From NCBI GenBank assembly GCA_017530735.1, contig JAFXMB010000009.1, forward strand, positions 1 through 33,567: a stretch of 33,567 nt of DNA. Direction: 5' to 3'. The DNA comes from Bacteroidaceae bacterium (GTDB taxonomy: Bacteria > Bacteroidota > Bacteroidia > Bacteroidales > Bacteroidaceae). Of the stretch, positions 6,478 through 33,567 are shown piece after piece. Position 1 is the first letter of the stretch. Every line of letters begins with the position of its first letter. Both the position numbers and the translations under genes were made by a program. Under the pieces are notes generated by a model. That model searched no databases, was not told the origin of the DNA, and saw nothing but the letters and a program-made list of their open reading frames with translations.

Positions 6478-6489
6478 ATCCTTAATGGT

Positions 6490-7590: not shown

Positions 7591-7616
7591 TTGTTACGCT
7601 TTTATTAATCTGAGCG

Positions 7617-7624
7617 CAAAGGTA
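7617..7624 (-). promoter_or_regulatory. -7 promoter element for ychF-lgt
   Basis: The minus strand reads TACCTTTG (TAnnTTTG), 26 bp upstream of the ychF ATG. A T-run (TTTTTTTT) lies just upstream. No clear -33 box was identified. Confidence 0.5.
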
Positions 7625-7637
7625 GCAAAAAAAAGCG

Positions 7638-8246: not shown

Positions 8247-8251
8247 GTCTG

Positions 8252-8259
8252 CAAAATTA
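8252..8259 (-). promoter_or_regulatory. Candidate -7 element for the DUF4294 gene
   Basis: The minus strand reads TAATTTTG, 5 bp before the ATG. It matches TAnnTTTG, but the predicted start of transcription would fall at or next to the ATG. Confidence 0.35.
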
Positions 8260-8280
8260 TCAAATATCCCAAAAAAGACC

Positions 8281-8288
8281 TACTTTTG
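8281..8288 (+). promoter_or_regulatory. -7 promoter element for the HhH/beta-barrel gene
   Basis: TACTTTTG matches TAnnTTTG, 43 bp upstream of the ATG at 8332, in the divergent intergenic region. Confidence 0.45.
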
Positions 8289-8331
8289 GCCCAATCCTTT
8301 GGAAAACATTTGTTTCTAATACTATTATACT

Positions 8332-10287
8332 ATGAAATTAAGATTGTTAATCTCCTGGTTTGCCCTGCTGTCATATCCATTGACGGCGGTTTATTCCCAG
8401 AACATTACAGAAGAGGGATGGGAGAGCGTGCTTGAAACACTCCTGTCCGATGAAGAACTCACGGCCGATGCCCTTGAGGAGTTGTCCGATATGTACGAGT
8501 CGCTCCATGAGGCGCCCCTGAACATCAACACCGCCACACGCGATGAACTCTCCATGCTGCCCTTTCTGACCGACCGCCAGATAGAGGATATCCACGCCTA
8601 CATCTACATGCACGGGCCCATGCTCACCCTTGGCGAACTACAACTGACCGGCAGCCTTGACTACGCCACGCGGCAGTTGCTGCGCCACTTTGTCTATGCC
8701 GGTCCGCCCTCACCGCAAAAGGAGAGAATAAGGTTGGCCGATGTCCTGCGCGACGGACGCACTGAGGTTGTGGGGCGCATGGACATACCGCTTTACCTGA
8801 GGGACGGCTTTCGGAAAGGAACCTATCTGGGCGGCAGGCTGTCACATAACCTTCGCTGCTCATTCAACTGGCATAACCGCATAAGGCTGGGGATATCGGC
8901 CGATAAGGATGCGGGTGAACGGGGTTATGACTTTTGGTCACCCTATCTGTTCCTTAAGGATATGGGTGTTCTTAAGGAACTTGCGCTGGGAAACTTCAGG
9001 GCGCAGTTCGGGTTGGGCTTGCTGCTGGGCGGCGGATTCAGTGTGGGCAAGACCATGGCGCTGTCGTCAATGAGCCGTCAGACCCAAGGGTTGGGGCCGC
9101 ACTCATCAACCCGGGAGTACGGTTATCAGAGGGGTGGCGGTGCCGCCTTGGGGTGGGGTCATACCACATTCACGCTCATGGCTTCAAGGACTCCTGTTGA
9201 CGTCACTCTGAAAGGTGATACAGTCATAAGTTCATTCAAGGAGGACGGATACCACCGCACACCGCTGGAACTCTCCAAAAAGCACAACGTGACACTGAGT
9301 ATGGTTGCGGCCAATATGCGTTACAGTTTCCGTGGCCTGAAGTTCGGGGTAACCGCCATGACGGAGAGCCTGACGGTTCCGTACAAGGGGTACGGGCGTT
9401 TGAGCGGGGTGTCGGCAGACTGCTCAGTGAACAGGGCCAGATACTCTCTGCAGGCTGAACTGTCACTGTTGGACTCCAAACCAGCTCTGATTGCATCGCA
9501 GACCTTCAGGTTGGGTAACGGATGGACAGCCAACGCGGTGGTGCGCCATTACAGCCCGCAGTATTTGTCACTTCACTCAAATGCCATGGCCGAGGGCAGC
9601 GTGCAGAATGAGACGGGTCTGCTTACGGGCTTTGCACACAGCAGCCGTAACCTAAAGGTGAGCGGTTATGCCGACCTTTTCATGCATCCTGAACCCAGGT
9701 ATGGGGCATCGGCCCCCAGTAACGGGATGGATCTGAGGATGGAGGCCGACTGGAGGGTGGGACGGCGCGATGCCCTCTATGCCACGGCACGTTTCAAGTC
9801 CAAGCAGAAGGACTGCAAGTATACCCGCCAGTTGGAGTACTGCCTGACCGGACGTTACCGGCTGCGCTGGACCCATGACTGCCCCAGCGGTGCCAGCCTG
9901 AAGACCCAGTTTTTCTATGTCAGGTATGATTTCATTGCCCAGCCCATAACCAACGGATATGCGCTTACGGGCAGTTATGAGCGCAGTTTTCCGGATTCAG
10001 GACTGGATGTGGCCCTTTCGGTCGCGGCGTTCTACACCCAGAGTTATGACTGCCGGGTATCGGTCTATGAGAGCGGTCTGCGGTACTCGTATAACTTTAT
10101 CAGCCTGTACGGCAAGGGCGGACGTCTGGCGCTGACGGTAAAATACAGGCTGGGCAGCAACATGCAACTGAACCTGAAAGCGGGCGGGACTTACTACCTG
10201 GACCGTGACGAGATAAGTTCCTCGCATCAGCGCATAGACGCTTGCCACAAAGAGGACATATCGTTACAGTTCATATCAAAGTTCTGA
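8332..10287 (+). CDS. Exported helix-hairpin-helix protein with C-terminal beta-barrel-like region
   Basis: A 651-aa protein with a signal peptide (residues 1-23, ending VYSQ). A ComEA-like helix-hairpin-helix region spans ~62-124 (PLNINTATRDELSMLP … LTLGELQLTG). The rest (~130-651) consists of alternating polar/hydrophobic stretches rich in aromatic residues and glycine, ending in a terminal phenylalanine (SLQFISKF), as in outer-membrane beta-barrels. In the first hairpin the usual GIG is replaced by FLT, so DNA binding is doubtful. Related proteins are annotated only as HhH-domain proteins in Bacteroidota. A role in the outer membrane is inferred; ligand and function are unknown. It is a single-gene unit between divergent DUF4294 and the radical SAM-dacB pair. 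Confidence 0.8.
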   Translation: MKLRLLISWFALLSYPLTAVYSQNITEEGWESVLETLLSDEELTADALEELSDMYESLHEAPLNINTATRDELSMLPFLTDRQIEDIHAYIYMHGPMLTLGELQLTGSLDYATRQLLRHFVYAGPPSPQKERIRLADVLRDGRTEVVGRMDIPLYLRDGFRKGTYLGGRLSHNLRCSFNWHNRIRLGISADKDAGERGYDFWSPYLFLKDMGVLKELALGNFRAQFGLGLLLGGGFSVGKTMALSSMSRQTQGLGPHSSTREYGYQRGGGAALGWGHTTFTLMASRTPVDVTLKGDTVISSFKEDGYHRTPLELSKKHNVTLSMVAANMRYSFRGLKFGVTAMTESLTVPYKGYGRLSGVSADCSVNRARYSLQAELSLLDSKPALIASQTFRLGNGWTANAVVRHYSPQYLSLHSNAMAEGSVQNETGLLTGFAHSSRNLKVSGYADLFMHPEPRYGASAPSNGMDLRMEADWRVGRRDALYATARFKSKQKDCKYTRQLEYCLTGRYRLRWTHDCPSGASLKTQFFYVRYDFIAQPITNGYALTGSYERSFPDSGLDVALSVAAFYTQSYDCRVSVYESGLRYSYNFISLYGKGGRLALTVKYRLGSNMQLNLKAGGTYYLDRDEISSSHQRIDACHKEDISLQFISKF

Positions 10288-12532: not shown

Positions 12533-13141
12533 TTACAGCTGTTTGAACTGGTATCCCTGTTCCTTTAGCCACTCAATGGCTTTGGGTAGTGCGTAGCGCA
12601 GGTTCTTCTCGCTGCGCAGGGAGTCATGGAATACTATTATGGAGCCGTTGCGTGTGTACTTCTTTACTATCTCCAGAACCTTCTCGGGATTGAGTTTCTC
12701 ATTATAGTCACGTGTTATCACATCGTAGAATATAATGTCGTAATCGCCTTTCATGTAACGGTATGTCCATCGGCGCAGAACTCCGTGAGGAGGACGGAAC
12801 AGGCGGGTAGCAAAATAACTGTCACACTTGTGTACATTGTCAATGTAATCGTGGTTGCGCATGCGCATTCCGCGAACATGATTGAATGTATGGTTTCCTA
12901 TGTGATGTCCGCGCTCCACCACCATCCTGTATGTTTCGGGGTGTTTGCGTACGTTGTCACCTACCATGAAGAAGGTGGCTTTTATACCGTACTGGTCCAG
13001 AAGGTCAAGAACCCACGGAGTGACCTCAGGGATGGGACCGTCGTCAAAGGTGAGATAAACCGAATGGTCTTCCGGATCTTTCCGGAAGACGCCATTCGGG
13101 TAAATTTTACTCAGTATCGCTGTGGGCTGTTCAAGTATCAT
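12533..13141 (-). CDS. NodB-domain polysaccharide deacetylase family protein
   Basis: A 202-aa protein, essentially one NodB homology domain: TFDDGP (31-36, catalytic and metal Asp33/Asp34), the metal-binding HTFNH (His84, His88), FRPPHG and SIIVFHDS. These are the signature motifs of carbohydrate esterase family 4, which removes N-acetyl groups from sugars of peptidoglycan or other glycans using a metal ion. No signal peptide is visible, a pattern I recall for close Bacteroidota relatives, so the site of action is unclear. Its ATG overlaps the stop codon of DUF2723 by one base, indicating translational coupling and perhaps a shared role in envelope glycan synthesis. Confidence 0.88.
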   Translation of the reverse strand: MILEQPTAILSKIYPNGVFRKDPEDHSVYLTFDDGPIPEVTPWVLDLLDQYGIKATFFMVGDNVRKHPETYRMVVERGHHIGNHTFNHVRGMRMRNHDYIDNVHKCDSYFATRLFRPPHGVLRRWTYRYMKGDYDIIFYDVITRDYNEKLNPEKVLEIVKKYTRNGSIIVFHDSLRSEKNLRYALPKAIEWLKEQGYQFKQL

Positions 13142-16100
13142 CAGTTCAGACGACGTTCAAATTCATCGCACATGTTATGGAACTCAACAAACAACTCCTC
13201 ATACTGATCCTTGTCAATACATTTCTCCAACAACGGGAATACTAATGAATACTGATAGGATGCAATATCTGTGAACTGAGCATTGATGCGTCTGAGATTA
13301 CGGTCGTTCATACTCAGATACCATCTCATGAGCTGATAATAGTTGTTGGTTGTCTGGAATAGTATCTTGGCAGCCTTATCGGTATGACCTAAAGCAAGGT
13401 AGATGTTTGCTATCTCAGAACTTGAGCCATAGAATGCATCGTCAACGGGCATCAACTCATCGGAGATACCGTTAATTACTGATTCCAATACGTTGAAAGC
13501 CTTCTCCTTCTCACCCTTGTTGAAGAGTTCAATTGCAAGCTGAGCGGAAAGTCGGCGCTGTGACAGGCACATTCTGCGGTTGGTCTCATCCAGATAGACA
13601 TCAGGATTGTCCAGTCCGCCGTAATTGAATGTCATGAAGTTGTCATACATTGTGTCGGGATCAATACCGCCGTTGCTTGTACCTTCACCGATGGCCTTCC
13701 AGTTGAAAGGAGTGATACGGTATGCAAGACCTTCAAGCAGGAAGTAGTTTCCAAGTCCCAGAGTGTTTTCTTTGGCAACTGTGGTAGCAATGTAGAGAGG
13801 TCTCTCCCAGTTGCAGTTTGCCAGCAGGTCAAGCATCATGATCTCATTCTTCATAAGATTGCTCTTACCCTTAAGTGAGATGATCATGCGGTCCGGCATC
13901 TTTGCCTTGGTCTCCTCATCGGTTGCACCGCGATAGGCTTTGGGAATCATCATTCCTGAACGCAGAACGGCATCCTTGTCTATCTTGAACCAGATGGTAT
14001 CTGTAGGAATCATGTGATGCTGCTTGATCCAGTAGTTAAGGACGTTGTGAAGTTCAAATGACCTTTCAACCGCCTCCTTGCTGTTATTCTTGAGCAGGAT
14101 CTCCTTATCCTCAGGATTAACGGCTACATAATCATTGGTGCCGGTCTGGTAATCTATTCTCTCAAATGAGATGGGAAGAGCCGGTGAATCATATGCTGGA
14201 CGTTTCATCTGGTCGATATACCAGTCAGTCATGAGGTAACTCAGGTTGCAGCAACGTGCATCGGTACGGAATCCTTCGGTCTCAAAGTTATACCAGAGAG
14301 GGAAGGTATCGTTATCACCGTTTGTAAAGATTATCGGGTTACCCTGCTTGGAGAGTGATTTCAGATAGTTCTGACCAAAATCACGGCATGCATATCGGCC
14401 GCTACGGTCATGATCATCCCATGTTTGGCTTACCATCTGAAGTGGAACCATAAGACAGATGACAAAAGCCAACAGGGCCGATGCCTTCTTTCCGATAAAC
14501 TTGAATCTGCCCAGCCATTCGGCGATGGCGGCAACGCCTATTCCTATCCAGATGGCAAATGCGTAGAATGAACCCGCATAGGCATAGTCACGCTCACGAG
14601 GCTGGCGCGGAGTCTGGTTCAGGTAGAGCACGATGGCCAGACCTGTCATGAAGAAGAGCGCCAGAACAACGATGAACTGCTGTGAACCTTCACGTCCCTT
14701 TCCAATCTGCCATAACAGACCAAGCAGACCCAGAATGAGCGGCAGGCAATAGAATACGTTATGACCCTTTCCGGAGAGGGAGTCAGGTAAAAGTTTGCTG
14801 TCGCCTCCTGTAAGCAGGCGGTCTATGAAGTTGAAACCTGTAATCCAGTTACCGTTTTCAAAATCTCCGTAAAGGTTCTGATTGTCATTCTGACGGCCGG
14901 CAAAGTTCCAAAGGAAGTAACGCCAGTACATGAAGTTGACCTGATATCTGAAAAAGAACTTAAGGTTCTCGGCCTGTGTGGGAACGGTAACCTTGATGTT
15001 GTTTCCACGCTGGTTATAGGTGACTGTACGGCCCTTGATACCTCCGCACCATAACTTGTACGATGCAATATGATCGGGATCCCTGCTGTACATGCGGGGG
15101 AATAGCATATTCTGTGCATATACATAATCGATCTTTTCATCCATTATGTAGTAACTGTCCTTTTCAGAGTCGTTGGCCTTTTCCTTACGTCCGTAGGAGT
15201 TACCCTTGAACTTGGTTACAGGTGAGTAGTAAGTATACTTCTGGTCCTTCTTGAGTTCATATACCAACTCTGAACTGTAAGTCTGTCCGTAAAGGAGAGG
15301 TCTTGAACCGTACTGTTCACGTGCCAGATACTCACCCAGTGCAAAGATATCCTCGGGTGAATCCTGATCCATGGGCGGATTGGCGGTTGAACGGATCACG
15401 ATGACTGCATATGATGAATAACCTATGGTAATCATCATGACGCAGAGCATGATGGTGTTCAGCACGCTGGCCGACGGCTTAACCTTTTCAGGGATACCGT
15501 TTGAGAAGAGGTAGATGGCACCTGCGGCCAGAACAACCAGACCCAGTACGATACCGCCTGCCTTATGGCCGTAGAAAGGTATGCCGGCAAAGGCTACGGT
15601 AAGCAGGAATGAAAGGTACATGAGAGTCTTGCGGTCACCGCGCTGTGTCTCATATGCACCCCAGATCAGAAGTCCTACAAGCAGTATGATGTAGACCATC
15701 AGACCGGTGTTGAAGGGCAGACCCAGACCGTTTACGAACAGGAGTTCAAACCAGCCGCCAACCTTCACGATACCGGGAACGATACCGTACAGGACTGCCG
15801 CAATGATTACGCCTGAAAGTATGAATGCCAGAATTCCGCCTTTCCAGGTGGGGTTCTCTGATTTCTTGAAATAGTATACCAGTACGATGGCTGTGATACA
15901 AAGCAGGTTCAGCAGGTGAACGCCAACTGACACACCTATCAGGTATGCAATCAGTACCAGCCAGCGTGCGCTGTGAGGCTGATCGGCGTTCTCCTCCCAT
16001 TTAAGTATGAGCCAGAATGTAACGGCTGTGCAGAACGATGAGTATGCATAGACCTCACCCTCAACGGCACTGAACCAGAAGGTATCGGACCATGTATATG

Positions 16101-16482
16101 CAAGCGCTCCTACAATGCCTGAACCGAATATGGTTATCATCTGCCACATATCGGGATCCTTGGTACCTGCCACCAGTTTCTTTACAAGCATGGTTATGCT
16201 CCAGAAAAGGAACAGTATGCAGAGTGCGCTAAGTATTGCGGACATGATATTTACCATCATGGCTACCTTACTCGGGTCACTTGTAAACTGTGAGAACAGG
16301 TTTGCCGTAAGCATGAATATAGGTGCCCCGGGCGGGTGTCCTACTTCCATCTTGTAACCGGTGGTAATGAACTCCGGGCAATCCCAGAAGCTGGCGGTTG
16401 GCTCAATAGTCATACAGTAGGTCACTGCAGCGACTGCAAACACAAGCCATCCGATGATAGTGTTCAGTCTTTTGTAATTCAT
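13141..16482 (-). CDS. DUF2723 membrane protein (GT-C type glycosyltransferase-like)
   Basis: A 1113-aa protein. The N-terminal ~350 residues and a second block around 580-680 carry numerous transmembrane helices, followed by a large soluble C-terminal part ending in helical, TPR-like segments. Near the N-terminus, ASFWDCPEF and GHPPGAP (residues ~30-52) match the acidic periplasmic loop of DUF2723 (PF11028), a family with the GT-C fold related to protein O-mannosyltransferases. It is therefore a candidate lipid-linked-sugar-dependent transferase acting at the periplasmic face, for example in protein O-glycosylation; this is inference. It is transcribed from a -7 element at 16514-16521 and coupled to the NodB gene downstream. 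Confidence 0.88.
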   Translation of the reverse strand: MNYKRLNTIIGWLVFAVAAVTYCMTIEPTASFWDCPEFITTGYKMEVGHPPGAPIFMLTANLFSQFTSDPSKVAMMVNIMSAILSALCILFLFWSITMLVKKLVAGTKDPDMWQMITIFGSGIVGALAYTWSDTFWFSAVEGEVYAYSSFCTAVTFWLILKWEENADQPHSARWLVLIAYLIGVSVGVHLLNLLCITAIVLVYYFKKSENPTWKGGILAFILSGVIIAAVLYGIVPGIVKVGGWFELLFVNGLGLPFNTGLMVYIILLVGLLIWGAYETQRGDRKTLMYLSFLLTVAFAGIPFYGHKAGGIVLGLVVLAAGAIYLFSNGIPEKVKPSASVLNTIMLCVMMITIGYSSYAVIVIRSTANPPMDQDSPEDIFALGEYLAREQYGSRPLLYGQTYSSELVYELKKDQKYTYYSPVTKFKGNSYGRKEKANDSEKDSYYIMDEKIDYVYAQNMLFPRMYSRDPDHIASYKLWCGGIKGRTVTYNQRGNNIKVTVPTQAENLKFFFRYQVNFMYWRYFLWNFAGRQNDNQNLYGDFENGNWITGFNFIDRLLTGGDSKLLPDSLSGKGHNVFYCLPLILGLLGLLWQIGKGREGSQQFIVVLALFFMTGLAIVLYLNQTPRQPRERDYAYAGSFYAFAIWIGIGVAAIAEWLGRFKFIGKKASALLAFVICLMVPLQMVSQTWDDHDRSGRYACRDFGQNYLKSLSKQGNPIIFTNGDNDTFPLWYNFETEGFRTDARCCNLSYLMTDWYIDQMKRPAYDSPALPISFERIDYQTGTNDYVAVNPEDKEILLKNNSKEAVERSFELHNVLNYWIKQHHMIPTDTIWFKIDKDAVLRSGMMIPKAYRGATDEETKAKMPDRMIISLKGKSNLMKNEIMMLDLLANCNWERPLYIATTVAKENTLGLGNYFLLEGLAYRITPFNWKAIGEGTSNGGIDPDTMYDNFMTFNYGGLDNPDVYLDETNRRMCLSQRRLSAQLAIELFNKGEKEKAFNVLESVINGISDELMPVDDAFYGSSSEIANIYLALGHTDKAAKILFQTTNNYYQLMRWYLSMNDRNLRRINAQFTDIASYQYSLVFPLLEKCIDKDQYEELFVEFHNMCDEFERRLN

Positions 16483-24165: not shown

Positions 24166-25080
24166 ATGAGAAAGCAATTACTACTGTTCCTGATATCGGT
24201 CATATCATGTTTCTTAATTTCCGTAAAAGCCCAGACTGTACCGCCCCAGGTTCCTGAATCTGTGGTGTTTGCCGGCCAGAAGATCACTTTTGACAGGGCC
24301 GACCTGCGCGAGCGTATGGATCGCGAACTTATAGCATTCACGTACTCGCACAATATGTCCACGCTCATGATTAAGAGGGCCAACCGCCTGTTTCCGCAGA
24401 TAGAGCCCATTCTGCAGCGTATGGGTATCCCCGATGACCTTAAGTACCTGATGGTGATAGAGAGCAATCTGGACCCTCAGGCAGTATCGGGAGCGGGTGC
24501 CGCCGGACTCTGGCAGTTCACCCAGGCCACCGGCCGTGCATACGGACTTGAGGTGAACACCAACATTGACGAGCGCTATAACACATACAAGGCTACCGAG
24601 GCCGCATGCCGTTTTCTGGCCGAAGCCTACAGCAAGTACGGCAACTGGATGACTGTGGCTGCCAGTTACAACGGAGGTCAGCAGGGTATGGACCGTCGCA
24701 TTGAGGCCCAGCACACAAAGGACGGCCTTGACATGTGGCTGGTCGATGAGACATCGCGCTACATGTTCCGCATCCTGGCCGCCAAGATGATGTTTGAAAA
24801 CCCGGCCCTTTTTGGATTCAGTTTCAAGCGTGAGGACCTATATCCCTACATTCCCATCAAGGAGCAGATCAAGATAACCGATCCGGTTGAGGACCTGGTA
24901 AAGTTTGCCGAGGACCACGGCATCACATACGCCGACCTTAAGCGCGCCAACCTGTGGCTGCGTGAGACCAAACTAAACAACAAATCCCACCGCACCTATT
25001 ACATCGATATTCCCGATGTAAAGGCCCAATACTATAATCCCTCAAAGACTAAGGTTCATAACCCTGCTTGGGTGAAGTGA
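24166..25080 (+). CDS. Membrane-bound lytic transglycosylase, MltD-like (SLT domain)
   Basis: A 304-aa exported protein: signal peptide at about 1-23 (ending VKAQ), then a family 1 lytic transglycosylase domain with catalytic Glu99 in MVIESNLDP, followed by GAAGLWQF and AASYNGG. These enzymes cleave the MurNAc-GlcNAc bond of peptidoglycan to form 1,6-anhydro-MurNAc ends. The C-terminal ~70 residues (VKFAEDHGITYADLKRANLWL) look like a degenerate LysM-type segment, as in MltD relatives. The signal peptide has no clear lipobox, so membrane anchoring is unlikely despite the family name. The TGA abuts the stop codon of the convergent phosphonate operon. Confidence 0.92.
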   Translation: MRKQLLLFLISVISCFLISVKAQTVPPQVPESVVFAGQKITFDRADLRERMDRELIAFTYSHNMSTLMIKRANRLFPQIEPILQRMGIPDDLKYLMVIESNLDPQAVSGAGAAGLWQFTQATGRAYGLEVNTNIDERYNTYKATEAACRFLAEAYSKYGNWMTVAASYNGGQQGMDRRIEAQHTKDGLDMWLVDETSRYMFRILAAKMMFENPALFGFSFKREDLYPYIPIKEQIKITDPVEDLVKFAEDHGITYADLKRANLWLRETKLNNKSHRTYYIDIPDVKAQYYNPSKTKVHNPAWVK

Positions 25081-26262
25081 TTATTTCTGTTGTGAGGGAA
25101 GGATAATCCCGTTTATCAGAATCTGTGCGACCGTTTCGGCTTCGCTTATGGGAACCTCTTTGGGAATGTCCACTCCAAAGCGGGTCTTGACTTTTTCCAC
25201 CAATTCATCGGTGTAAATGAGCTTGCCGTCGGTCACGTTTTCAATACCGTCGTGGTAGATTGACTTGCGGTTGACTTGATGCATCAGCTCCAGGGGATAC
25301 TCGTCGGATATGTAGCCCTTGACATCCTGTCCGGTTGCATCAATAATGAAAGGATAACCGCCGATATTTCCGTCCACGCCGGGAGTATGAATCTTGATGC
25401 AGGTCCTGTTGCGGATAGCCGATATTATGCTGTAGATGATATCGAAATTGCTCGATGCGTTCATCATGTTGCGCTTTTGGTCGGTGGGCATGGATATGCT
25501 GCAAGCCTTGAACACTTCATCAGGATCGATATCCAGTTCTTTTCCCTTGTACCTGATGTTCAGAAGGAGTTTCTCGCCTTCGGTATGTCCCTCCTTGCTG
25601 ATGACAACGTCGTGGAAATGGCTTGCCACAAGCGTGATGTCAATGTCATTGAGATTTTCTATACCTTCCTTTTGGGCAACGTAGAATTTAATACGCGGAA
25701 TCAGATGGTTCAGATTACCGCTGCCAAAGTCAAAATATGCCATCCCCGCACTTTTGAGCCAAGGAATGACGGCGTCAGAGTATGATGTGTTGATGCTTAT
25801 GGCGTTGCATCCTGCAGCATCATAAGCCTCCATTATGTTCTTGCCAAGCAAAAGAGACATGGGTGTCCAGATGCCGTAAGCGCGCAGGTTGGACCATGAG
25901 ATGGTTCCGTATTTGAGGCCGGCATAAAGGCGGCTGCTGTTCACGATGAAATCGGGCTTTATCTTTCTTAAGGCTGCCTCAATGGATTTTACGTCCTTGA
26001 AGTCACAACCGCCACAGACCACTATTTCGCTGCGCATCTGACGGCGTATCGTAGCGGCAGTACGGATTATGTTCACGTCCTGCTGCATCTTGTCGGCATT
26101 GCGTCCCACCACTGCAATACGTAACTGGGGGTCGGCAAGTGAAACCAGATAATCCAACAGATAACAACCTACGCTTCCCAGACCAAAGATGGCTATGGTT
26201 ATCTTTTCTCCTCCATCAAGTTTCTTACGGATGAGGTTGAGTTTCTCATTTAATGTCTTCAT
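25081..26262 (-). CDS. Rossmann-fold NAD(P)-binding protein of unknown function (phosphonate operon gene 7)
   Basis: A 393-aa cytosolic protein. The dinucleotide-binding motif is IAIFGLGSVGCYLLDYL (GxGxxG at Gly27, Gly29, Gly32), followed by a second strand ending VVGRN. Later stretches (INTSYSDAVIPWLK, FGSGNLNHLIPRI, VASHFHDV) recall the arrangement of lactate/malate dehydrogenase-like enzymes, but I cannot assign it to a named family. It is not a myo-inositol phosphate synthase or a typical iron or zinc alcohol dehydrogenase. It is the last gene of the operon; its ATG overlaps the preceding nucleotidyltransferase stop by 4 bp. It is a candidate oxidoreductase in processing phosphonoacetaldehyde or the glycan partner; this is inference from context. 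Confidence 0.6.
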   Translation of the reverse strand: MKTLNEKLNLIRKKLDGGEKITIAIFGLGSVGCYLLDYLVSLADPQLRIAVVGRNADKMQQDVNIIRTAATIRRQMRSEIVVCGGCDFKDVKSIEAALRKIKPDFIVNSSRLYAGLKYGTISWSNLRAYGIWTPMSLLLGKNIMEAYDAAGCNAISINTSYSDAVIPWLKSAGMAYFDFGSGNLNHLIPRIKFYVAQKEGIENLNDIDITLVASHFHDVVISKEGHTEGEKLLLNIRYKGKELDIDPDEVFKACSISMPTDQKRNMMNASSNFDIIYSIISAIRNRTCIKIHTPGVDGNIGGYPFIIDATGQDVKGYISDEYPLELMHQVNRKSIYHDGIENVTDGKLIYTDELVEKVKTRFGVDIPKEVPISEAETVAQILINGIILPSQQK

Positions 26263-27011
26263 TTCTTCAAAGCTTTGATTGCTTCCTGATAATCAGCCAC
26301 AGTATTGCAGTTATACCAAAGATCAATCCTGATGATATCCAGTTCGGAACCTTTGCAGACTCCAAAGTACTTCTGGATTATCTCAAGATTGGTACCCTGT
26401 TGCTGGTTTGGGGTAAGGTTCAGGCAGATATCCTTTACCCTGGCTGCATCCTTGAACTTCCACATCTGACCTGAGTTGTAGATGGCCGTAAAAGGTTCCT
26501 TTATCTCAAGGCATGAGTGACTGGTATCGTAAATGTAGTGGGGGTAGTTGCCGGCATCAAAGTAAAGTGCAACGGCCTTGTTTGAGAGTATAGGCTCGTT
26601 GTTGACGGTGATGGCGTCTTTTGCCGATGTCAGCAGTCTGTTCACGCTCTCGGTGTCAAAGAACAGGTCTCCCTCAATAAATACAATTTCATCGGCCTTT
26701 TGGGATACATTCTGTATTCCTTTCAGAAGACTGAATCCTGATCCGTAATCACTGAAATGATCGTTGAATACCAGCTTTATCCTGCTCTTTACGTCAGTCA
26801 GATTCTTTTCTATGAAATGCTCCAGATCATCATACTTGTAGCCGCCCACAACGATTATTTCATCTACAAGGGCAAAAGCCTTATGTATCTGAATGCTCAA
26901 AAGCGCATTGTCAGGCGTATCCTCATAATAGAGGCACTTGAGCACCTTCTCCCTGGTGTCCCGGTTGAAACGGTTGGCCGTACCGGCTACTGTGATAATC
27001 AGACTTCTCAT
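26259..27011 (-). CDS. Nucleotidyltransferase (probable CTP-dependent, PntC/LicC-like; phosphonate operon gene 6)
   Basis: A 250-aa protein with the sugar-phosphate nucleotidyltransferase fold. The N-terminal nucleotide-binding loop is a variant, TVAGTANRFNRDTREKVLK (7-25), of the usual LAAGxGxR…PK. A metal-binding EGDLFFD and a C-terminal NCNTVADYQEAIKAL, equivalent to DIDTPEDY in relatives, support the assignment. In phosphonate clusters of other bacteria a PntC- or LicC-type cytidylyltransferase activates 2-aminoethylphosphonate or phosphocholine as the CMP/CDP ester for LicD transfer, and that is the suggested role here. The loop is unusual enough that substrate and even nucleotide choice are uncertain. 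It overlaps both neighbours by 4 bp. Confidence 0.75.
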   Translation of the reverse strand: MRSLIITVAGTANRFNRDTREKVLKCLYYEDTPDNALLSIQIHKAFALVDEIIVVGGYKYDDLEHFIEKNLTDVKSRIKLVFNDHFSDYGSGFSLLKGIQNVSQKADEIVFIEGDLFFDTESVNRLLTSAKDAITVNNEPILSNKAVALYFDAGNYPHYIYDTSHSCLEIKEPFTAIYNSGQMWKFKDAARVKDICLNLTPNQQQGTNLEIIQKYFGVCKGSELDIIRIDLWYNCNTVADYQEAIKALKK

Positions 27012-27850
27012 TTCTTATCGCCAAAATCAATACTTGAGAACGGTATGTGTGACTCTCTTTTGTCTTCGGGCGGCAATGTCATGTAGTCGCGGTACTGATA
27101 GACAAGTCTTTCGTCATATTCCCTTGTTCCCAGAAACTTATAACCTTCAAACTCATATTCACTAAGATCGGTAAACCACTTCTTGGGCATACTGTATCTT
27201 ATCTTGAGAGGACTCTTGAAATAGAGTTTTCCGTTTGAGATAAAGAGCAGCACCCTCACTCTGTTGGGAGAGTCGTTGCGGCTCCTGCTTGCCATGCGGT
27301 CAATACGTTTGTGAACGGTATTGGCCGATATATGATTGATCAGTTTGAACCATAGTTTCCAGAATCCTTTCTCATTTTTCTTGGCTACCTCTGACCAAAG
27401 GATCTTCCTCAGGCAGAAGCAGTAGAAATCAAGCAGCATCTGGCCGATAAGCGACTTCGGAGTATCATCCAACGGGAAAATATCAACACCGATTCCGGTC
27501 TTGAACTTGAGATGCTCCTGTCCGACCCTTACGAATGTAGTGCCGGTGCGGCGCAGTTTTGCATATCCCCAAAGGTAGTTGGGATCAGTTGAATGGTCCT
27601 GAAAGAAACAGATATCGGGATTCATCTCATGGGCCACCTTCTTGAACTTATCATACTCCTGGCGGAGCATTACTATGTCCATATCATCATCCCACGGAAT
27701 GAAACCTTTGTGTCGGACAGCACCCAGCAGGGTTCCTCCGTCAATAGAATAGAGAATGTTATGCTTACGGCAAACACGGTCAAACTCAGCGACCATCTCC
27801 ACTTCCATAAGCTGCATCTTGCGCAGCTGCTCTTTTGTAAGCTCTCCCAT
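27008..27850 (-). CDS. licD: LicD family phosphotransferase (phosphonate operon gene 5)
   Basis: A 280-aa LicD/fukutin-type transferase. The hallmark GGTLLGAVRHKGFIPWDDD starts at residue 38, carrying the metal-binding Asp54-56 and Asp58. GVDIFPLDD, which fits the second conserved acidic motif, follows near residue 125. LicD proteins move phosphocholine, or other CDP/CMP-linked small phosphate or phosphonate groups, onto glycans. With the upstream PEP mutase and decarboxylase and the downstream nucleotidyltransferase, this is the expected step that puts the phosphonate onto a surface polysaccharide or LPS sugar. No signal peptide or membrane segment is evident, so it would act in the cytosol on a lipid- or nucleotide-linked acceptor. 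There are 3 bp between it and the SDR gene, and a 4-bp overlap with the nucleotidyltransferase. Confidence 0.9.
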   Translation of the reverse strand: MGELTKEQLRKMQLMEVEMVAEFDRVCRKHNILYSIDGGTLLGAVRHKGFIPWDDDMDIVMLRQEYDKFKKVAHEMNPDICFFQDHSTDPNYLWGYAKLRRTGTTFVRVGQEHLKFKTGIGVDIFPLDDTPKSLIGQMLLDFYCFCLRKILWSEVAKKNEKGFWKLWFKLINHISANTVHKRIDRMASRSRNDSPNRVRVLLFISNGKLYFKSPLKIRYSMPKKWFTDLSEYEFEGYKFLGTREYDERLVYQYRDYMTLPPEDKRESHIPFSSIDFGDKK

Positions 27851-27853
27851 AAA

Positions 27854-28855
27854 TCAGCTGTTTTGAATGGATGCCACACACATCTCAAGACCCTTGTCAA
27901 GGTTGATTATAGGTTTCCAGTCGGTGCGGGTGCGTATCTTCTCGGTATTCAGAACCCTGCGCTCCGGGTCGGAACTGCGGAAACCCTCAAATTTGATTTC
28001 GGGTTTGGGCAGTCCCATCTTCTCGGCTATCTTGTAGGTAAGGTCTATGATGGTGATCTCTTCGTCGGTAGCCACGTTGTAGACTGTTCCGTCAAGAGCC
28101 TTATCGGAATTGATAAGTGCCATAACCGAACGGCAGCTGTCAATGTTGTGCAGGAATGCACGGCGGTTCTTCTTGGAGTTCTCAAGCAGGGTGACTGACC
28201 CCTTCTCAAGCAGTTCGTTGATGATATGCGGAATGATATGCTTGGCAAAACGCTCATGCTTGCTGTACACATTGGCAAAGCGTATGGAACAACCCTTGAT
28301 CTTTCCCTTGTCGACGGCATCTTTCATGAAGAACTCAGTCATCAGCTTTCCGCATGCGTAACTTGTACGCTGGCTGTGTTCGGCCGTTGACATAAGCAGA
28401 TAATCACTTTCACGGACTCCGCCATTGGCATTCCATGACTGCATGGAGTAAACCTCGGATGTAGAGCAGTTGATGTAGATATCGGCTCCTACGCGTATGG
28501 CCTGTTCCAGGAAAGACTTCATTGAGATCACATTGGTTTCCCAGGTATGTTCAACCTCATAGAAGTGCTCTGTATGTACCACTGCAGCGCAGTTGATGTA
28601 TACGACTCTGTCAAATGAGTCTTTTTCACTTTTGACCTGATACTCAATGGCCTGCATCTGCACGGCATTGTTTATATCGTATTCGTAGAATGTGAATCCG
28701 GGGTTATCCAGATACTCCTTTATGGTATCTATGGAACTGGCAAAGAAGTTGTCGAATCCTATGATCCGGCTCTCTTTCTCTGATTCCAGTATCTGGCGTA
28801 CAAGCTCGCTTCCTGTCATTCCCGAAGCTCCGCTTAAAACGTACAGTGTATTCAT
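27854..28855 (-). CDS. NAD-dependent epimerase/dehydratase, extended SDR (phosphonate operon gene 4)
   Basis: A 333-aa extended short-chain dehydrogenase. The cofactor motif is GASGMTG (Gly9, Gly12, Gly15), NCAAVV fits the SDR alanine-rich motif, NCSTSEVY contains the catalytic Ser/Thr, and the active-site YACGK gives Tyr166 and Lys170. Such enzymes usually act on nucleotide sugars (epimerases, dehydratases, reductases). Here it could modify the sugar that receives the phosphonate, or reduce phosphonoacetaldehyde to 2-hydroxyethylphosphonate in place of the usual enzyme. The second idea is speculative. The ATG overlaps the metallophosphoesterase stop by 4 bp. Confidence 0.88.
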   Translation of the reverse strand: MNTLYVLSGASGMTGSELVRQILESEKESRIIGFDNFFASSIDTIKEYLDNPGFTFYEYDINNAVQMQAIEYQVKSEKDSFDRVVYINCAAVVHTEHFYEVEHTWETNVISMKSFLEQAIRVGADIYINCSTSEVYSMQSWNANGGVRESDYLLMSTAEHSQRTSYACGKLMTEFFMKDAVDKGKIKGCSIRFANVYSKHERFAKHIIPHIINELLEKGSVTLLENSKKNRRAFLHNIDSCRSVMALINSDKALDGTVYNVATDEEITIIDLTYKIAEKMGLPKPEIKFEGFRSSDPERRVLNTEKIRTRTDWKPIINLDKGLEMCVASIQNS

Positions 28856-29586
28856 ATGCCTTTTTTTAATCTTTCCTTGTAAAATGAATCAACGCGCGGA
28901 TCAAACAGCGCCTGTTCCTTGTCTACATCATACCATACTGAGCGGTGCTCAAAGCTTTGGGTCTGTGTATCCAGAATGCCGTATTGTGCATACGGATTAT
29001 GGTTGCGGGGCTGACCTACGGAGCCGGGGTTGATGAAAACGGTGCGTTTTTTGTTTCGGTATTCGATGTTGTCCGATGCAAAGAAGTACTCCACGTAATG
29101 GGGAATATGTGAATGAGCCGATACCACATAGTCAAACCGGGCAAAACGGTTGTCGTTCAGACCGTCAACGCTGAACCTTCCCCATAATGGGTCATCAATG
29201 CTTCCGTGCATAAAAAGGAAGAGGCTGTTCTCTATCTCCTTGGTACAGGTTCCACTGTGATCCAACTCACGGTCCAGGTAATTCTTGGATTCTTTGGTCA
29301 GTATGGAGTTCGTGAACTGAAGTACCGAACGTCCTCTGTCGGTGGCGAACTTGTCAAGGCTTCCTCCAAACACAGAGTATTCATGATTTCCCCACAGGTT
29401 GACAAGAACCTTGTCTTTTGGCAGTGCGCGGATAATGTCTATGGTCTCGTTGGGACGTGGGCCGTAGTTTACAAGGTCGCCCAGAAGAACATAAGCATCA
29501 ACCGGTTCTTGACGCTGCAGATCAGACAGCACTGCCTGCAGGGCCGTGACGTTGGCGTGTATGTCGGCTAAAAACGCTATTCTCAT
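28852..29586 (-). CDS. Metallophosphoesterase, calcineurin-like (phosphonate operon gene 3)
   Basis: A 244-aa dinuclear metal phosphatase or phosphodiesterase. The motifs appear in order: LADIHAN (Asp8, His10), LGDLVNYGP (Gly36-Asp37, Asn40), GNHE (66-69), then SAHSHIPH and NPGSVGQPRN. It has no signal peptide, hence cytosolic. Relatives include YfcE/MJ0936-like and other small phosphoesterases of diverse substrate. Its position between phosphonopyruvate decarboxylase and the SDR, with 4-bp overlaps on both sides, makes it a true operon member. It might hydrolyse a phosphorylated or nucleotide-linked intermediate. Phosphoesterases of this type do not normally cut C-P bonds. Confidence 0.88.
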   Translation of the reverse strand: MRIAFLADIHANVTALQAVLSDLQRQEPVDAYVLLGDLVNYGPRPNETIDIIRALPKDKVLVNLWGNHEYSVFGGSLDKFATDRGRSVLQFTNSILTKESKNYLDRELDHSGTCTKEIENSLFLFMHGSIDDPLWGRFSVDGLNDNRFARFDYVVSAHSHIPHYVEYFFASDNIEYRNKKRTVFINPGSVGQPRNHNPYAQYGILDTQTQSFEHRSVWYDVDKEQALFDPRVDSFYKERLKKGI

Positions 29587-30707
29587 TTTTTCAGGAAGGC
29601 CATCAGTGCCTCTTTGTTTTGTATGGGTGTCGTGGTGGGACGTCCCAGGTCCTTGCGGTTGCCCTTCTTGACTTTCACCTCCAACAGGACAGGACCTGTC
29701 ATGCCTGACAGAGTTGATAATATGTTTTGCAACTCATCTTTCGTTGAAACGGAGTATACGGCATTATAACCTGCGGCTTTGGCTATGGCCGGCAGGTCAA
29801 TATTGAGACCGACAGTGGGCTGACCGCCTACCGAGTCGTGGGCTCCGTTGTTGAATACCACGTGAACGTAGTTGCCTGGTTTCTTGCTTGCCACGATGGC
29901 CATGCTGCCCATGTGCATTATGGTGGCGCCGTCACCGTCAAAGCACCATACCTTGCGGTCCTTTTTTTCAAGTGCGATTCCAAGTGCTATCTGGCTGGCG
30001 TGTCCCATTGAGCCCACGGTAAGGAAATCGCGTTCATGACCCTGTCCCCAGGCCTCACGTGCCTCAAACAGTTCACGGCTTATCATGCCGGTTGTGCTTA
30101 CAATCACATCCTTGTCACCAAGTACCGATGCTACTTCCTTTATTGCCTCTTCACGGCTCATGGTGAGATTGTTAACCTCTATGTTCTGGAGCTTGTAATC
30201 ATCAAAAGTATCCTTCTCGATAACCAAAGCAAATACTTCATTGTTCCTGAGTGCTGCAACTGCACGGTCAATCTGTGCGGCAGCCTGATCCTCCTCCTTG
30301 GAGAGAACTTCATAACCGATGCCCATCACGTCAAGCAGTCCTAAGGTCACTTTGCCCTGCTTTACGTGTTGAGGCTCGTCATGTACGCCGGGGCGTCCGC
30401 GCCAACCGATGACAAGCAGCACCGGTATGTTGTATACATCCTTGTCGGTAAGTGAAGCCAACGGGTTTATGGTATTGCCCTCTCCGCTGTTCTGCATATA
30501 GACGCATGCAGGTTGTCCGGTTGCCAGGTAATGACCTGCAGCAAAGCCTATGGCTGCACCTTCATTGGCCGTGATTATGTTATGTCCGGAATCGGAATGG
30601 TCTGTGATATAAGCACAAACATTCTTGAGAAGGCTGTCCGGCACACCTGCAAAACAGTCTATTCCGTTCTCTTTAAGCTTCTCTATGAAAAAAGCGGGCG
30701 TCAGCAT
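29583..30707 (-). CDS. ppd: Phosphonopyruvate decarboxylase (phosphonate operon gene 2)
   Basis: A 374-aa thiamine-diphosphate enzyme (also called AepY) that decarboxylates phosphonopyruvate to phosphonoacetaldehyde and CO2, pulling the unfavourable PEP mutase reaction forward. Visible features are the N-terminal pyrimidine-binding half with the catalytic glutamate in ITANEGAAIGFAAG (Glu49), the conserved QNSGEGNTINPLASL (72-86) and GWRGRPGVHDEPQH, and the ThDP/Mg2+ motif GDG (258-260) to NNGAH (287-291). Length is normal for the family. It starts 5 bp after the PEP mutase stop and overlaps the metallophosphoesterase by 4 bp. Confidence 0.95.
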   Translation of the reverse strand: MLTPAFFIEKLKENGIDCFAGVPDSLLKNVCAYITDHSDSGHNIITANEGAAIGFAAGHYLATGQPACVYMQNSGEGNTINPLASLTDKDVYNIPVLLVIGWRGRPGVHDEPQHVKQGKVTLGLLDVMGIGYEVLSKEEDQAAAQIDRAVAALRNNEVFALVIEKDTFDDYKLQNIEVNNLTMSREEAIKEVASVLGDKDVIVSTTGMISRELFEAREAWGQGHERDFLTVGSMGHASQIALGIALEKKDRKVWCFDGDGATIMHMGSMAIVASKKPGNYVHVVFNNGAHDSVGGQPTVGLNIDLPAIAKAAGYNAVYSVSTKDELQNILSTLSGMTGPVLLEVKVKKGNRKDLGRPTTTPIQNKEALMAFLKK

Positions 30708-30712
30708 GACAG

Positions 30713-32029
30713 TTACTGTTTAGTGCCGGGAATAAGATTCAGTATTTCTTTAATGGGCATGCAGTATTCATCGGATGCCTCCAGGCTTCGTGAGGTTTCA
30801 AGAATACGTTTTGCGCATTTTACCATGGCCGGATAGGCACTTCTGAGCATGTGGTTGGCATAGATGACGACGTTGATACCCCATGATGCCAGCTCCTCTT
30901 CGGTAAACTGGTTGTAGGTGGTTGGCACGGCTACAATGGGGGTGTGGTCATCTTTCTGGCGGAAACGCAGGCAGAACTCTTTGATATCCTGTCCGTCCTT
31001 GTTCCTTGAATGGATCATTATGCCGTCAGCTCCGGCTGCTACATATGCAAAAGCACGTTCCAATGCATCTTCGACAGGCTTTCCAGCTATCAGGCTCTCT
31101 ATGCGGGCAATTACCATGAAATCACGGGTTATCTGGGCGTTCTTGCCGGCCTTTATCTTGGAGCAGAAACCTTCAATTGTATCCTGAGTCTGGACGGCAT
31201 CGGTTCCAAACAGGGAGTTCTGCTTCAGACCCACTTTGTCCTCAATGATGACGGCCGATATGCCAAGTCTTTCAAGAGTCCTTACGGTAAAGATAAAGTG
31301 TTCGTTCTTTCCGCCGGTGTCACCGTCAAAGATTACGGGTTTGGTTGTTACCTCAAGAGTGTCATTCAGGTCGTGGAGACGTGTCGTAAGGTCTACAGCC
31401 TCTATATCGGGCTTACCCTTGCTGGTGCTGTCGGTAAGACTTGAAGCCCACATTCCGTCAAACTCCTTGTGCTGTCCGTTAACATCGACGGATGTATGCT
31501 CTGCTATGAGTCCGGTCAGACCGTTGTGGGATTCAATGATCCTGACAATGGGTTTTGCCGAAATCAGGCGGTGCAGGGATGAAAGACGCGCCTGGGGAGT
31601 TACTCCAAGAGAGTCTATGGTCTCTTTCAGACCGGAAGCGGATATACCTTTGGTGTACGGTATCTCTATTATCTTTCCGCCGATCTCCTCCATTACCTTG
31701 AAGGCCTGCTCGCGCAGATACTTGCTGGGTCCCTCTTTCCAGTCGTCGCCGTGAATCATAAAATCAGGCTTGTACTTGATCAGATTGGGAACATAATTCC
31801 AGTCATCCTGCGGAACGATGCAGGATACTCCCTTTATGTTTTCTATGACGTTTTTTCTCTGTTCGTAGTTGAGATAAGGCAAGCGTTTGTGTGTGGCGAT
31901 AGCCTTGTCGGTAAACAGACCGATCATCAGATCACCGTATTTAGCCCCTTCATTAATGATATTGATAAGACCCGGATGCATGATATCGCCTATCATGCCA
32001 AGGTATACCGTTTTGTTCTTTTTTGCCAT
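30713..32029 (-). CDS. pepM: Phosphoenolpyruvate mutase with N-terminal cytidylyltransferase-like domain (phosphonate operon gene 1)
   Basis: A 438-aa two-domain protein (also called AepX). Residues ~1-135 form a cytidylyltransferase-like domain (YLGMIGDIMHPGL … ISASGLKETI). Its HxGH catalytic motif reads HPGL (18-21), with Leu21 replacing the second histidine. Residues ~150-438 are the isocitrate-lyase-superfamily PEP mutase: DGDTGG for metal binding and EDKVGLKQNS (Glu263-Ser272), which fits EDKx5NS, the signature separating true PEP mutases from relatives. It makes the C-P bond by converting PEP to phosphonopyruvate. It heads the seven-gene operon, with a -7 element at 32060-32067. Confidence 0.95.
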   Translation of the reverse strand: MAKKNKTVYLGMIGDIMHPGLINIINEGAKYGDLMIGLFTDKAIATHKRLPYLNYEQRKNVIENIKGVSCIVPQDDWNYVPNLIKYKPDFMIHGDDWKEGPSKYLREQAFKVMEEIGGKIIEIPYTKGISASGLKETIDSLGVTPQARLSSLHRLISAKPIVRIIESHNGLTGLIAEHTSVDVNGQHKEFDGMWASSLTDSTSKGKPDIEAVDLTTRLHDLNDTLEVTTKPVIFDGDTGGKNEHFIFTVRTLERLGISAVIIEDKVGLKQNSLFGTDAVQTQDTIEGFCSKIKAGKNAQITRDFMVIARIESLIAGKPVEDALERAFAYVAAGADGIMIHSRNKDGQDIKEFCLRFRQKDDHTPIVAVPTTYNQFTEEELASWGINVVIYANHMLRSAYPAMVKCAKRILETSRSLEASDEYCMPIKEILNLIPGTKQ

Positions 32030-32059: not shown

Positions 32060-32067
32060 CAAATATA
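32060..32067 (-). promoter_or_regulatory. -7 promoter element for the phosphonate operon
   Basis: The minus strand reads TATATTTG, a match to TAnnTTTG, 30 bp upstream of the pepM ATG and downstream of the metK terminator. Transcription would start near 32053 and give a leader of about 24 nt. No convincing -33 box at the usual spacing. Confidence 0.6.
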
Positions 32068-32102: not shown

Positions 32103-32140
32103 AATAAAAAAGCAGACCGGTCAACTTAAGGCCGGTCTGC
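32103..32140 (-). terminator. Rho-independent terminator of metK
   Basis: A perfect 9-bp stem (32132-32140 with 32112-32120; GCAGACCGG/CCGGTCTGC) with an 11-nt loop, followed on the minus strand by TTTTTTATTG. It begins 20 bp after the metK stop codon and separates metK from the phosphonate operon. Confidence 0.9.
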
Positions 32141-32160: not shown

Positions 32161-33453
32161 TCAGAGATTAAAAGCCTTTTTAATCTTATCTACATAGTCC
32201 AGTTTTTCCCATGTGAAGAGTTCCACTTGAATGGTCTTGGCAGGCATGTAGTGTGATGTGAAGACCTTTGTGACGGTCTGCGGCTCGCGACCCATGTGTC
32301 CGTATGCTGCGGTCTCGCTGTAGATGGGGTTACGCAGTTTCAGGCGGTTCTCAATGGCCTTGGGACGCATATCGAACAGCTGGTCCACAATCTTTGCAAT
32401 CTCGCCGTCGGACATCTTCACATGACTTGTTCCGTAAGTATTGACAAAGATATTGATGGGCTTGGCAACGCCGATAGCGTAAGAAACCTGCACCAGGACC
32501 TCATCGGCCACACCTGCTGCAACCAGGTTCTTGGCGATATGACGTGTTGCATAAGCTGCGCTGCGGTCAACCTTGCTGGGATCCTTGCCACTGAATGCGC
32601 CTCCGCCGTGGGCTCCTTTGCCTCCGTAGGTATCGACAATTATCTTACGTCCGGTAAGGCCGGTATCTCCGTGCGGTCCGCCTATCACGAACTTGCCGGT
32701 GGGATTGACAAAATACTTGATTCCATCGTTGAAAAGGGCTCTTACTTTGTCCGATGCAATGGTGCTGATTACACGGGGTATCAGTATGTTCTTAACGTCC
32801 GATTCAATCTGAGCGAGCATCTTGCGGTCAGCCTCAAGCTGAGCCTCGACTGTGGCGTTCTCAGGTGCGATGAATTCATCGTGCTGGGTTGAAACCACGA
32901 TGGTATCGATGCGTACGGGTTTTCCGTTATCATTGTATTCAACAGTTACCTGACTCTTTGAGTCGGGACGCAGGTAGGTCATTACCTTGCCCTCGCGGCG
33001 GATATCGGCCAGCACACGCAGTATGCGGTGTGACAGGGCCAATGATACGGGCATGTACTCATCGGTCTCGTTTGTTGCGTAACCGAACATCATTCCCTGG
33101 TCGCCGGCACCCTGGTTCTCGGGGTCCTCGCGCTCAACGCCGCGGTTGATATCGGCGCTCTGCTCATGAATTGCGCTGAATACGCCGCAGGAGTCACCGT
33201 CAAACTTGTACTCTGAACGGGTATAGCCAATTCGGTTAATCACTCGGCGTGCAGTCTCCTGAAGGTCAATATAGGCCTTGGATTTTACCTCACCTGCAAG
33301 TACCACCTGACCGGTGGTTACAAGGGTTTCACATGCAACCTTTGAGTCTGGGTCAAAGGCCAGAAGTTCGTCAACGACGGCATCGGATATCTGGTCCGCT
33401 ACCTTGTCAGGGTGTCCCTCAGACACCGATTCGGATGTGAATAAGTATGACAT
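32161..33453 (-). CDS. metK: S-adenosylmethionine synthetase
   Basis: Methionine + ATP gives S-adenosylmethionine, phosphate and pyrophosphate. From the start chosen ([17 protein letters not shown]) the protein has 430 aa. Landmarks are GHPDK (13-17), the [12 protein letters not shown] hexapeptide region, [21 protein letters not shown] and [16 protein letters not shown]. The frame is open up to an ATG at 33504, but those 17 extra residues are unlike any MetK and are encoded by a hairpin, so the ATG at 33453 is preferred. It supplies SAM for, among others, the radical SAM and methyltransferase proteins in the window. It is followed by a strong terminator. Confidence 0.97.
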
Positions 33454-33470
33454 ATTATATATAAAAATAT

Positions 33471-33500
33471 AGCCCCACTGTCTTTTGGGACAATGGGGCT
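33471..33500 (-). promoter_or_regulatory. Stem-loop just upstream of metK (terminator or leader hairpin)
   Basis: On the minus strand AGCCCCATTGTC pairs with GACAGTGGGGCT, a 12-bp stem that is fully paired only in minus-strand RNA, through one U-G wobble; the other strand has a C-A mismatch. The loop is CCAAAA. It is followed by ATATTTTTAT and the metK ATG 17 nt after the stem. It could terminate transcription of a gene to the right of the window or sit in the metK leader. No known SAM-riboswitch fold was recognised. Confidence 0.5.
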
Positions 33501-33567
33501 GCAATTCAAATTATATGCTGTCAGTAAGTGTGACTTTTAGCATTTTTTTGTGTGGTTGCAAGCTGTC

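Follow-up and report, generated by a model that had tools for sequence, protein, structure and literature searches.

What becomes of phosphonoacetaldehyde in a bacterium whose carbon-phosphorus (C-P) genes are followed by neither the 2-aminoethylphosphonate (AEP) nor the 2-hydroxyethylphosphonate (HEP) genes of related clusters? The question is raised by a seven-gene operon (positions 25081-32029, minus strand) on contig JAFXMB010000009.1 of a Bacteroidaceae bacterium (assembly GCA_017530735.1), from which a stretch of 33,567 nucleotides, here called the window, was analyzed. In established family chemistry, phosphoenolpyruvate (PEP) is converted to phosphonopyruvate and then to phosphonoacetaldehyde. 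We consider it fairly probable that the operon arrived by horizontal insertion, serves to place a phosphonate on the cell surface and centers on a third type of head-group module that seems not to have been described. Four of its genes (mpp, sdr, duf6564 and g7; hereafter the block) would replace PntC and the AEP transaminase (AEPT), or the Fe-alcohol dehydrogenase (Fe-ADH), of sister clusters. Because this block of four uncharacterized enzymes alternates with the AEP module, a new head group and new phosphonoacetaldehyde enzymes become directly testable, and DUF6564 gains a probable role. According to PMC6697681, the phosphonate capacity of bacteria is held to serve mostly in cell-surface decoration, and the tailoring that follows C-P bond formation is enigmatic.

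The operon is predicted to commit to a C-P compound

Seven minus-strand open reading frames (ORFs), with intergenic spacings of 5, -4, -4, 3, -4 and -4 bp, lie between slt (24166-25080, plus strand, convergent) and metK (32161-33504, minus strand). An earlier sequence-only reading of this DNA had described a same-strand operon of seven genes joined by 4-bp overlaps or gaps of at most 5 bp, and the recomputed spacing and coordinates agree with it. It had also assigned the first two genes to a PEP mutase with an EDKx5NS motif and a phosphonopyruvate decarboxylase, a pair that commits to a C-P compound, and both proteins do exceed the equivalog cut-offs. PepM (30713..32029) scores 408.6 bits against TIGR02320 (cut-off, 319.55) and carries EDKVGLKQNS; Ppd (29583..30707) scores 521.8 bits against TIGR03297 (cut-off, 312.5).

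What that reading overlooked is that PepM is, judging by its sequence, a fusion with a degenerate N-terminal cytidylyltransferase domain of the Fom1 type, whose catalytic motif appears lost. Residues 15-135 match CTP_transf_like, and residues 6-138 align with positions 25-157 of the closest solved match, PEP-phosphomutase chain 5x3d (E = 1.7e-44), which we take to be the Fom1 cytidylyltransferase domain. The signatures of active Fom1-type domains are altered: HxGH reads HPGL and ISST reads ISAS. HxGH mutants were reportedly the subject of work by Park in 1997 and Veitch in 1998. In the Plasmodium phosphocholine cytidylyltransferase, both HxGH histidines are critical and the T761A and T762A mutants are practically inactive, according to PMC6060094. 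These two threonines would correspond to the ISST site.

A four-gene block is conserved beside pepM-ppd

The block opens with mpp (28852..29586), which encodes a phosphoesterase of the YfcE/Metallophos_2 type. It is followed by sdr (27854..28855), an extended short-chain dehydrogenase (SDR) with an Epimerase-type match; by licD (27008..27850), a LicD-family phosphotransferase that is an optional member of the operon; by duf6564 (26259..27011), a relative of PntC/LicC-like nucleotidyltransferases; and by g7 (25081..26262), a putative Rossmann oxidoreductase resembling saccharopine and carboxyspermidine dehydrogenases that matches no curated family above cut-off. The SDR, the metallophosphoesterase and the then unnamed Rossmann gene were rightly placed outside the aepXYZ set.

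We find that this block is a recurrent unit. Scanning 84,980 species genomes for DUF6564 yielded six loci in five genomes, a minimum given the requirement for exact 8-residue patterns: one uncultured Prevotella metagenome-assembled genome (two loci), Prevotellaceae bacterium HUN156, Prevotella sp. ne3005 and two uncultured Bacteroidales. All six carry pepM-ppd-mpp-sdr-duf6564-g7 in identical order and strand, some with interposed genes, and their identity to the window proteins is 89-91% for sdr, 76-82% for g7, 70-75% for duf6564 and 65-68% for mpp. A further locus, found through its PepM (L126), keeps the internal order mpp-sdr-duf6564-g7 but places these genes before pepM-ppd (identities of 46, 67, 49 and 61%, respectively). 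The block therefore accompanies pepM-ppd in 8/8 bacterial loci (the window, the six and the rearranged L126). Linkage of the four distal genes to pepM-ppd, on which the sequence-only reading had staked its case, thus holds for sdr, duf6564 and g7, and it extends to mpp, which is beside pepM-ppd in the window and the seven other loci. It fails for licD, which is optional and outside the fixed set.

A close licD (60-62% identity) occurs in three of the six scan loci (L057, L058 and L059). In L059, LicA-, LicC- and IspD-like genes lie inside the block at 6342-8802, adjoining licD. L055 has an inserted acyltransferase-like gene in two ORFs and other LicD genes on both sides, and in L054 g7 is followed by a TagF-like gene; the marker search of L056 found no homologue of either LicD or TagF. 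One contig (CAMHAM010000004.1) holds both L054 and L055, two copies of the block with neighbors of polysaccharide type. Markers for Fe-ADH, AEPT and PntC were absent from all seven other block loci and from the annotated genes of the window.

Among 249 genomes of the genus to which the L058 genome (G780) belongs, PepM occurs in 30 and the g7 profile in three, each time beside pepM. PF20202, the DUF6564 family, is matched at 0.001 by 17 of the 295 genomes in an order-level sample, 13 of which pass the 25-bit cut-off; a full match (333.9 bits) is confined to the genome of the window, and elsewhere scores do not exceed 34.2 bits and cover about half of the profile. A literature search, mostly of titles and the beginnings of abstracts, recognized no description of the block among the papers listed, and 'DUF6564' and 'Vibrio phage Va2' (see below) gave no papers.

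Could the block instead supply the glycan with an activated sugar or polyol unrelated to the phosphonate, while a housekeeping enzyme encoded elsewhere, a transaminase or a reductase, deals with phosphonoacetaldehyde? Pathways for nucleotide sugars or polyols often employ extended SDRs and LicC-like proteins, and polysaccharide genes neighbor the block in L054-L056. Yet g7 was never found without pepM in the 249 genomes, the block and PntC/AEPT alternate behind pepM-ppd (next section), and the two strong class-V aminotransferases of the window's own genome are SufS and SerC (four weaker matches, L022-L025, are left out of this count). Furthermore, a Vibrio phage has the set together with PepM and Ppd homologues and gave no LicD match at 1e-3. 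We regard this alternative as quite improbable.

One kind of pepM-ppd pair precedes either the block or PntC/AEPT

We compared 51 PepM proteins (leaving out the truncated L148; L035 comes from a contig of 3 kb) and labeled their loci by marker genes near pepM, so that the types denote gene content, not products. Thirteen loci have Fe-ADH without PntC (HEP-type) and 20 have PntC and/or AEPT (AEP-type), four of the latter in a single family of the phylum (f199). Six encode triple fusions of PntC, cytidylyltransferase and PepM (L036 and L138-L142), with Fe-ADH seen beside five of them. Eight carry the block and four fit no type. In L059, the LicC-like gene accompanies LicA and falls below the PntC threshold used. 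Outside f199, PntC was detected in every AEP-type locus save L123 (15 of 16), and DUF6564 in 8/8 block loci. In L124, L127 and L129, single ORFs of 626-694 amino acids match both Ppd and PntC and are apparently Ppd-PntC fusions.

The HxGH motif follows these types closely. It reads HPGH in 13/13 HEP-type and HPGL in 8/8 block loci; the 16 AEP-type loci outside f199 have HPGL (13), HPGY (two) or HPGI (one), and those of no assigned type have HPGL (three) or HPGH (one). Triple fusions carry HSGH (5/6) or LGAH (1/6), and ISST in none. Contrary to a simple motif rule, HHGH is present in all four f199 AEP-type loci. In a maximum-likelihood tree of PepM, the 27 HPG[LYI] proteins are separated from all others by a branch with support of 100/100, so that a single loss of HxGH is the best reading. 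Fusion to PepM thus need not mean that a cytidylyltransferase domain is active, since HxGH has been lost in a single clade comprising 27 of the 51 proteins.

Within this clade, the block label requires five changes, at least four of them forced by well-supported branches, and is mixed with AEP-type loci; it is also clustered, with only 2/500 shuffles as low. At the DNA level, pepM-ppd aligns at 66-80% in all six block/AEP-type pairs tested, and similarity ends within ~20 bp of the ppd end on the block side in each pair, save for one 96-bp piece. Together, the label changes and the DNA breakpoints show that one kind of pepM-ppd pair precedes either PntC/AEPT or the block. Exchange of modules, or ancient coexistence followed by loss, would both give this alternation.

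The tree also bears on two other explanations. One is an HEP route with a swapped reductase, in which the SDR or g7 makes HEP that is activated as the cytidine monophosphate derivative, CMP-HEP, the other genes being accessory. HEP-like clusters with this type of PepM are common, because Fe-ADH is near pepM without PntC in 13 loci and beside five more triple fusions with a fused PntC. The block loci lack Fe-ADH, and a search of the window's own genome with the HEP-type Fe-ADH of L026 found nothing at 1e-5. However, the PepM of this operon falls in a clade of AEP-type loci and not with those of Fe-ADH type. The Fe-ADH-type clusters compared contain a single reductase and lack a separate PntC, whereas the block keeps four genes together, and a fused domain that reads HPGL is unlikely to be the activating one. 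We find this route possible but unlikely. The other explanation, a decayed and functionless capsule remnant, could appeal to the degenerate fused domain and to the lack of a recognized polysaccharide locus around the operon. It strikes us as extremely improbable: the seven ORFs are intact, with ends that overlap or nearly touch, the catalytic motifs of PepM, SDR and MPP (the mpp product) are kept, and the cytidylyltransferase change is no local decay, because 26 other PepMs share it.

A third module is our favored reading, and the operon differs from each known system. The PntC/AEPT clusters (Rice et al. 2019, PMC6697681) share a PepM with a fused nucleotidyltransferase domain, Ppd, a LicC-fold protein and LicD, and on the tree AEP-type clusters surround the PepM of this operon. 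Unlike them, the operon has no AEP transaminase and no PntC scoring with PF12804, and has mpp, sdr, duf6564 and g7. The Fom1 cytidylyltransferase-PepM/Fe-ADH route to HEP has an identical PepM domain architecture, with HPGH and ISST in place of the HPGL and ISAS found here, and the operon lacks its Fe-ADH. With the Bacteroides fragilis aepXYZ genes for capsular AEP (PMC6697681), it shares the PEP mutase and phosphonopyruvate decarboxylase; the aepZ transaminase is absent and four other genes stand instead.

The operon was probably acquired horizontally

Within the same genus, slt is present in 31 of 37 genomes, the window's own included, and its surroundings were compared for 29 relatives. In 16 of these, metK is convergent with and adjacent to slt, with gaps of up to ~320 bp that leave no room for the operon; the site is therefore empty there. 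In three relatives metK is present in the other orientation, and in 10 it was not seen in the stretch around slt. Moreover, g7 occurs only in the window's genome among the 201 genomes of a family sample (11 others of the same genus) and the 295 of a class sample. The suggestion that the operon arrived by transfer is thus supported as probable. No mobile-element gene was found among the 12 other annotated genes of the window. The higher A+T content on which that suggestion had leaned is real and modest: the seven operon genes have GC contents of 0.445-0.505, against 0.523 for slt, 0.515 for metK and 0.523 for the next gene. A window gene outside the operon (13141-16482) is also at 0.475.

In the window's own genome, which is 83% complete, the search with the L026 protein found no Fe-ADH, and the two strong class-V matches above were rejected as an AEP transaminase located elsewhere. 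In the other five block genomes, Fe-ADH matches have E-values of 2.5e-25 or weaker, versus 1.1e-53 or better inside HEP-type clusters (a 382-residue ORF, L077 of G779, is left out). The window's genome has a second LicD gene on another contig (C103).

A Vibrio phage carries homologues of the core set

Against 50,697 phage records, mpp (1e-8), duf6564 (1e-4) and g7 (1e-3) each match a single record, that of Vibrio phage Va2, and the best phage match of sdr (limit, 1e-12) is in the same phage. Three rarely matched proteins in one phage record are hard to explain by chance. Six core-gene homologues are scattered over ~42 kb of MW073017.1 (80916-122525). They share with the window proteins 39% identity for mpp (E = 3e-49), 30% for g7 (5e-48), 30% for sdr (2e-42), 29% for ppd (7e-27), 27% for pepM (1e-10) and 25% for duf6564 (1e-10); this comparison took in 26 of the 60 features of one stretch, and the E-values are relative to those 26 proteins. 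Va2 may thus encode a phosphonate pathway, and it would be unexpected to find such chemistry in use by a phage, here one with counterparts of every core gene. Neighboring phage genes include a DNA ligase, an actin-like protein, a deoxyribosyltransferase and phosphoesterase domains, and no clear base-modification pathway was recognized among those we looked at. The Va2 record annotates the SDR gene as a metallophosphatase.

PHROGs holds no family for g7, DUF6564 or four of the Va2 proteins, and only general families for mpp (phosphatase, RNA ligase and phosphoesterase) and sdr (nucleotide-sugar epimerase). No g7 or DUF6564 match was confirmed in viral contigs, and plasmid records gave none for sdr at 1e-20 or duf6564 at 1e-5. 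Distant g7 homologues are on 15 plasmid records, at 22-29% identity in rhizobia and Planktothrix. They sit in other gene contexts in the regions looked at: five such neighborhoods (rhizobia, a rhodobacterium and Planktothrix) list no phosphonate gene in gene tables that are incomplete. In three rhizobial plasmid regions, the g7 homologue is beside an alanine-racemase-like gene, a DMT transporter and a TIGR01459 HAD hydrolase. Three short fecal records filed as 'Bacteriophage sp.' (MT837901.1, MT836947.1 and MT837899.1) encode a cytidylyltransferase-PepM (52%) or LicD (58%) like those of the window and are possibly bacterial capsule DNA filed as phage.

Candidate roles of the block enzymes

MPP keeps the DIH, GD, GNHE, H and HxH metal motifs, with 3rqz as its nearest solved relative, and the SDR retains its glycine-rich loop, D35, S131/T132, Y166 and K170 in all aligned rows, the phage included. 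LicD scores 141.8 bits against PF04991 (cut-off, 22.6). For g7, the Saccharopine-dehydrogenase NADP-binding domain of Pfam matches only below threshold, NCBIfam gives nothing at 0.01 and solved structures give nothing below 0.1 for the window protein alone. An eight-row profile that includes phage and plasmid homologues matches carboxyspermidine dehydrogenase (8deb, E = 7.2e-6) and saccharopine dehydrogenase (4rl6, 0.0013). These matches are confined to the N-terminal third, the Rossmann part (profile positions 9-113 of 371), and g7 is predicted to be a saccharopine-dehydrogenase-like oxidoreductase.

DUF6564 scores 334.1 bits against PF20202 (cut-off, 25) and aligns with PntC at 98% hhalign probability over 129 columns, in the N-terminal nucleotide-binding half. 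With a four-row profile that includes L126 and Va2, its best solved relative is LicC (1jyk, E = 1.2e-5, positions 5-224 of 249). The C-terminal W.EID of PntC (16/16) aligns with W[YF]NCN in 8/8 bacterial DUF6564 proteins and INLN in Va2, such that NxN takes the place of the ExD metal-site motif in all nine. The altered DUF6564/PntC site would correspond to the position of Glu216 in LicC, where the Asp two residues further on is presumably also a metal ligand. Glu216 itself is named as metal-coordinating in PMC6697681.

We propose the following pathway. PepM and Ppd would convert PEP to phosphonoacetaldehyde, which g7 and/or the SDR may reduce or reductively couple, giving a reduced or N-linked phosphonate. 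MPP would hydrolyze a phosphate ester en route. DUF6564 is the candidate for nucleotide activation, because the catalytic motif is gone from the Fom1-type domain of PepM, and LicD (a TagF-like enzyme in one other locus) would move the activated phosphonate to a glycan. The head group may be HEP made by a new reductase, an N-linked AEP or another compound. Activation by a nucleotidyltransferase and transfer by LicD had been suggested before. Attachment to a glycan stands as probable, on the strength of LicD/TagF family membership and polysaccharide neighbors in other genomes; the choice of activating enzyme is more conjectural, because the PepM domain is degenerate and the metal-ligand positions of DUF6564 are altered. 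A bolder scheme, which we hold tentatively and think rather doubtful, is that of a portable module for a new head group. Here, g7 would reductively couple phosphonoacetaldehyde to an amine, giving an N-substituted AEP, DUF6564 would activate it via an unusual metal site, and the SDR and MPP would finish the product; the Vibrio phage would use the activated phosphonate without LicD, for example, on DNA or the virion.

Several observations weigh against a third surface-phosphonate module. DUF6564 might not be an active nucleotidyltransferase, because both acidic residues aligned with the PntC ExD are missing, and neither the window protein alone nor a seven-row profile found a solved relative. 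The substrate of the extended SDR could be an ordinary nucleotide sugar. The link between HxGH loss and a separate nucleotidyltransferase is not independently replicated on the tree, because the loss is one event in a clade of 27, and L144-L147 retain HHGH despite PntC nearby. Absence of Fe-ADH and AEPT from the window's genome is not proof, because of its 83% completeness. In Va2, PepM (89 bits against a cut-off of 320) and Ppd (152 against 312) fall far below the equivalog cut-offs, PepM reads EDKx6NS, and the SDR scores about equally with GalE-type models; with the window PepM as query, the whole phage search gave no Va2 match at 1e-5.

Signals and other features of the window

Outside the operon, a 651-residue ORF (8332-10287) has no Pfam match at 1e-5. 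Promoter and terminator scans of the window gave results near chance. The TAnnTTTG promoter element claimed by the sequence-only reading is present as TATATTTG (32060..32067, minus strand), 30 bases upstream of the pepM ATG. Such elements occur 21 times in the window, compared with 14.8 expected, and 5/100 shuffles reach 21; the element alone is therefore weak evidence for a promoter of the Bacteroidetes type. The metK terminator said to precede the operon can be read by eye at ~32140-32106 on the minus strand (32106..32140, approximately), as a 9-bp stem (GCAGACCGG/CCGGTCTGC) with a loop of 11 followed by T6. It is unlisted by the terminator scan because that scan allows loops of up to 8.

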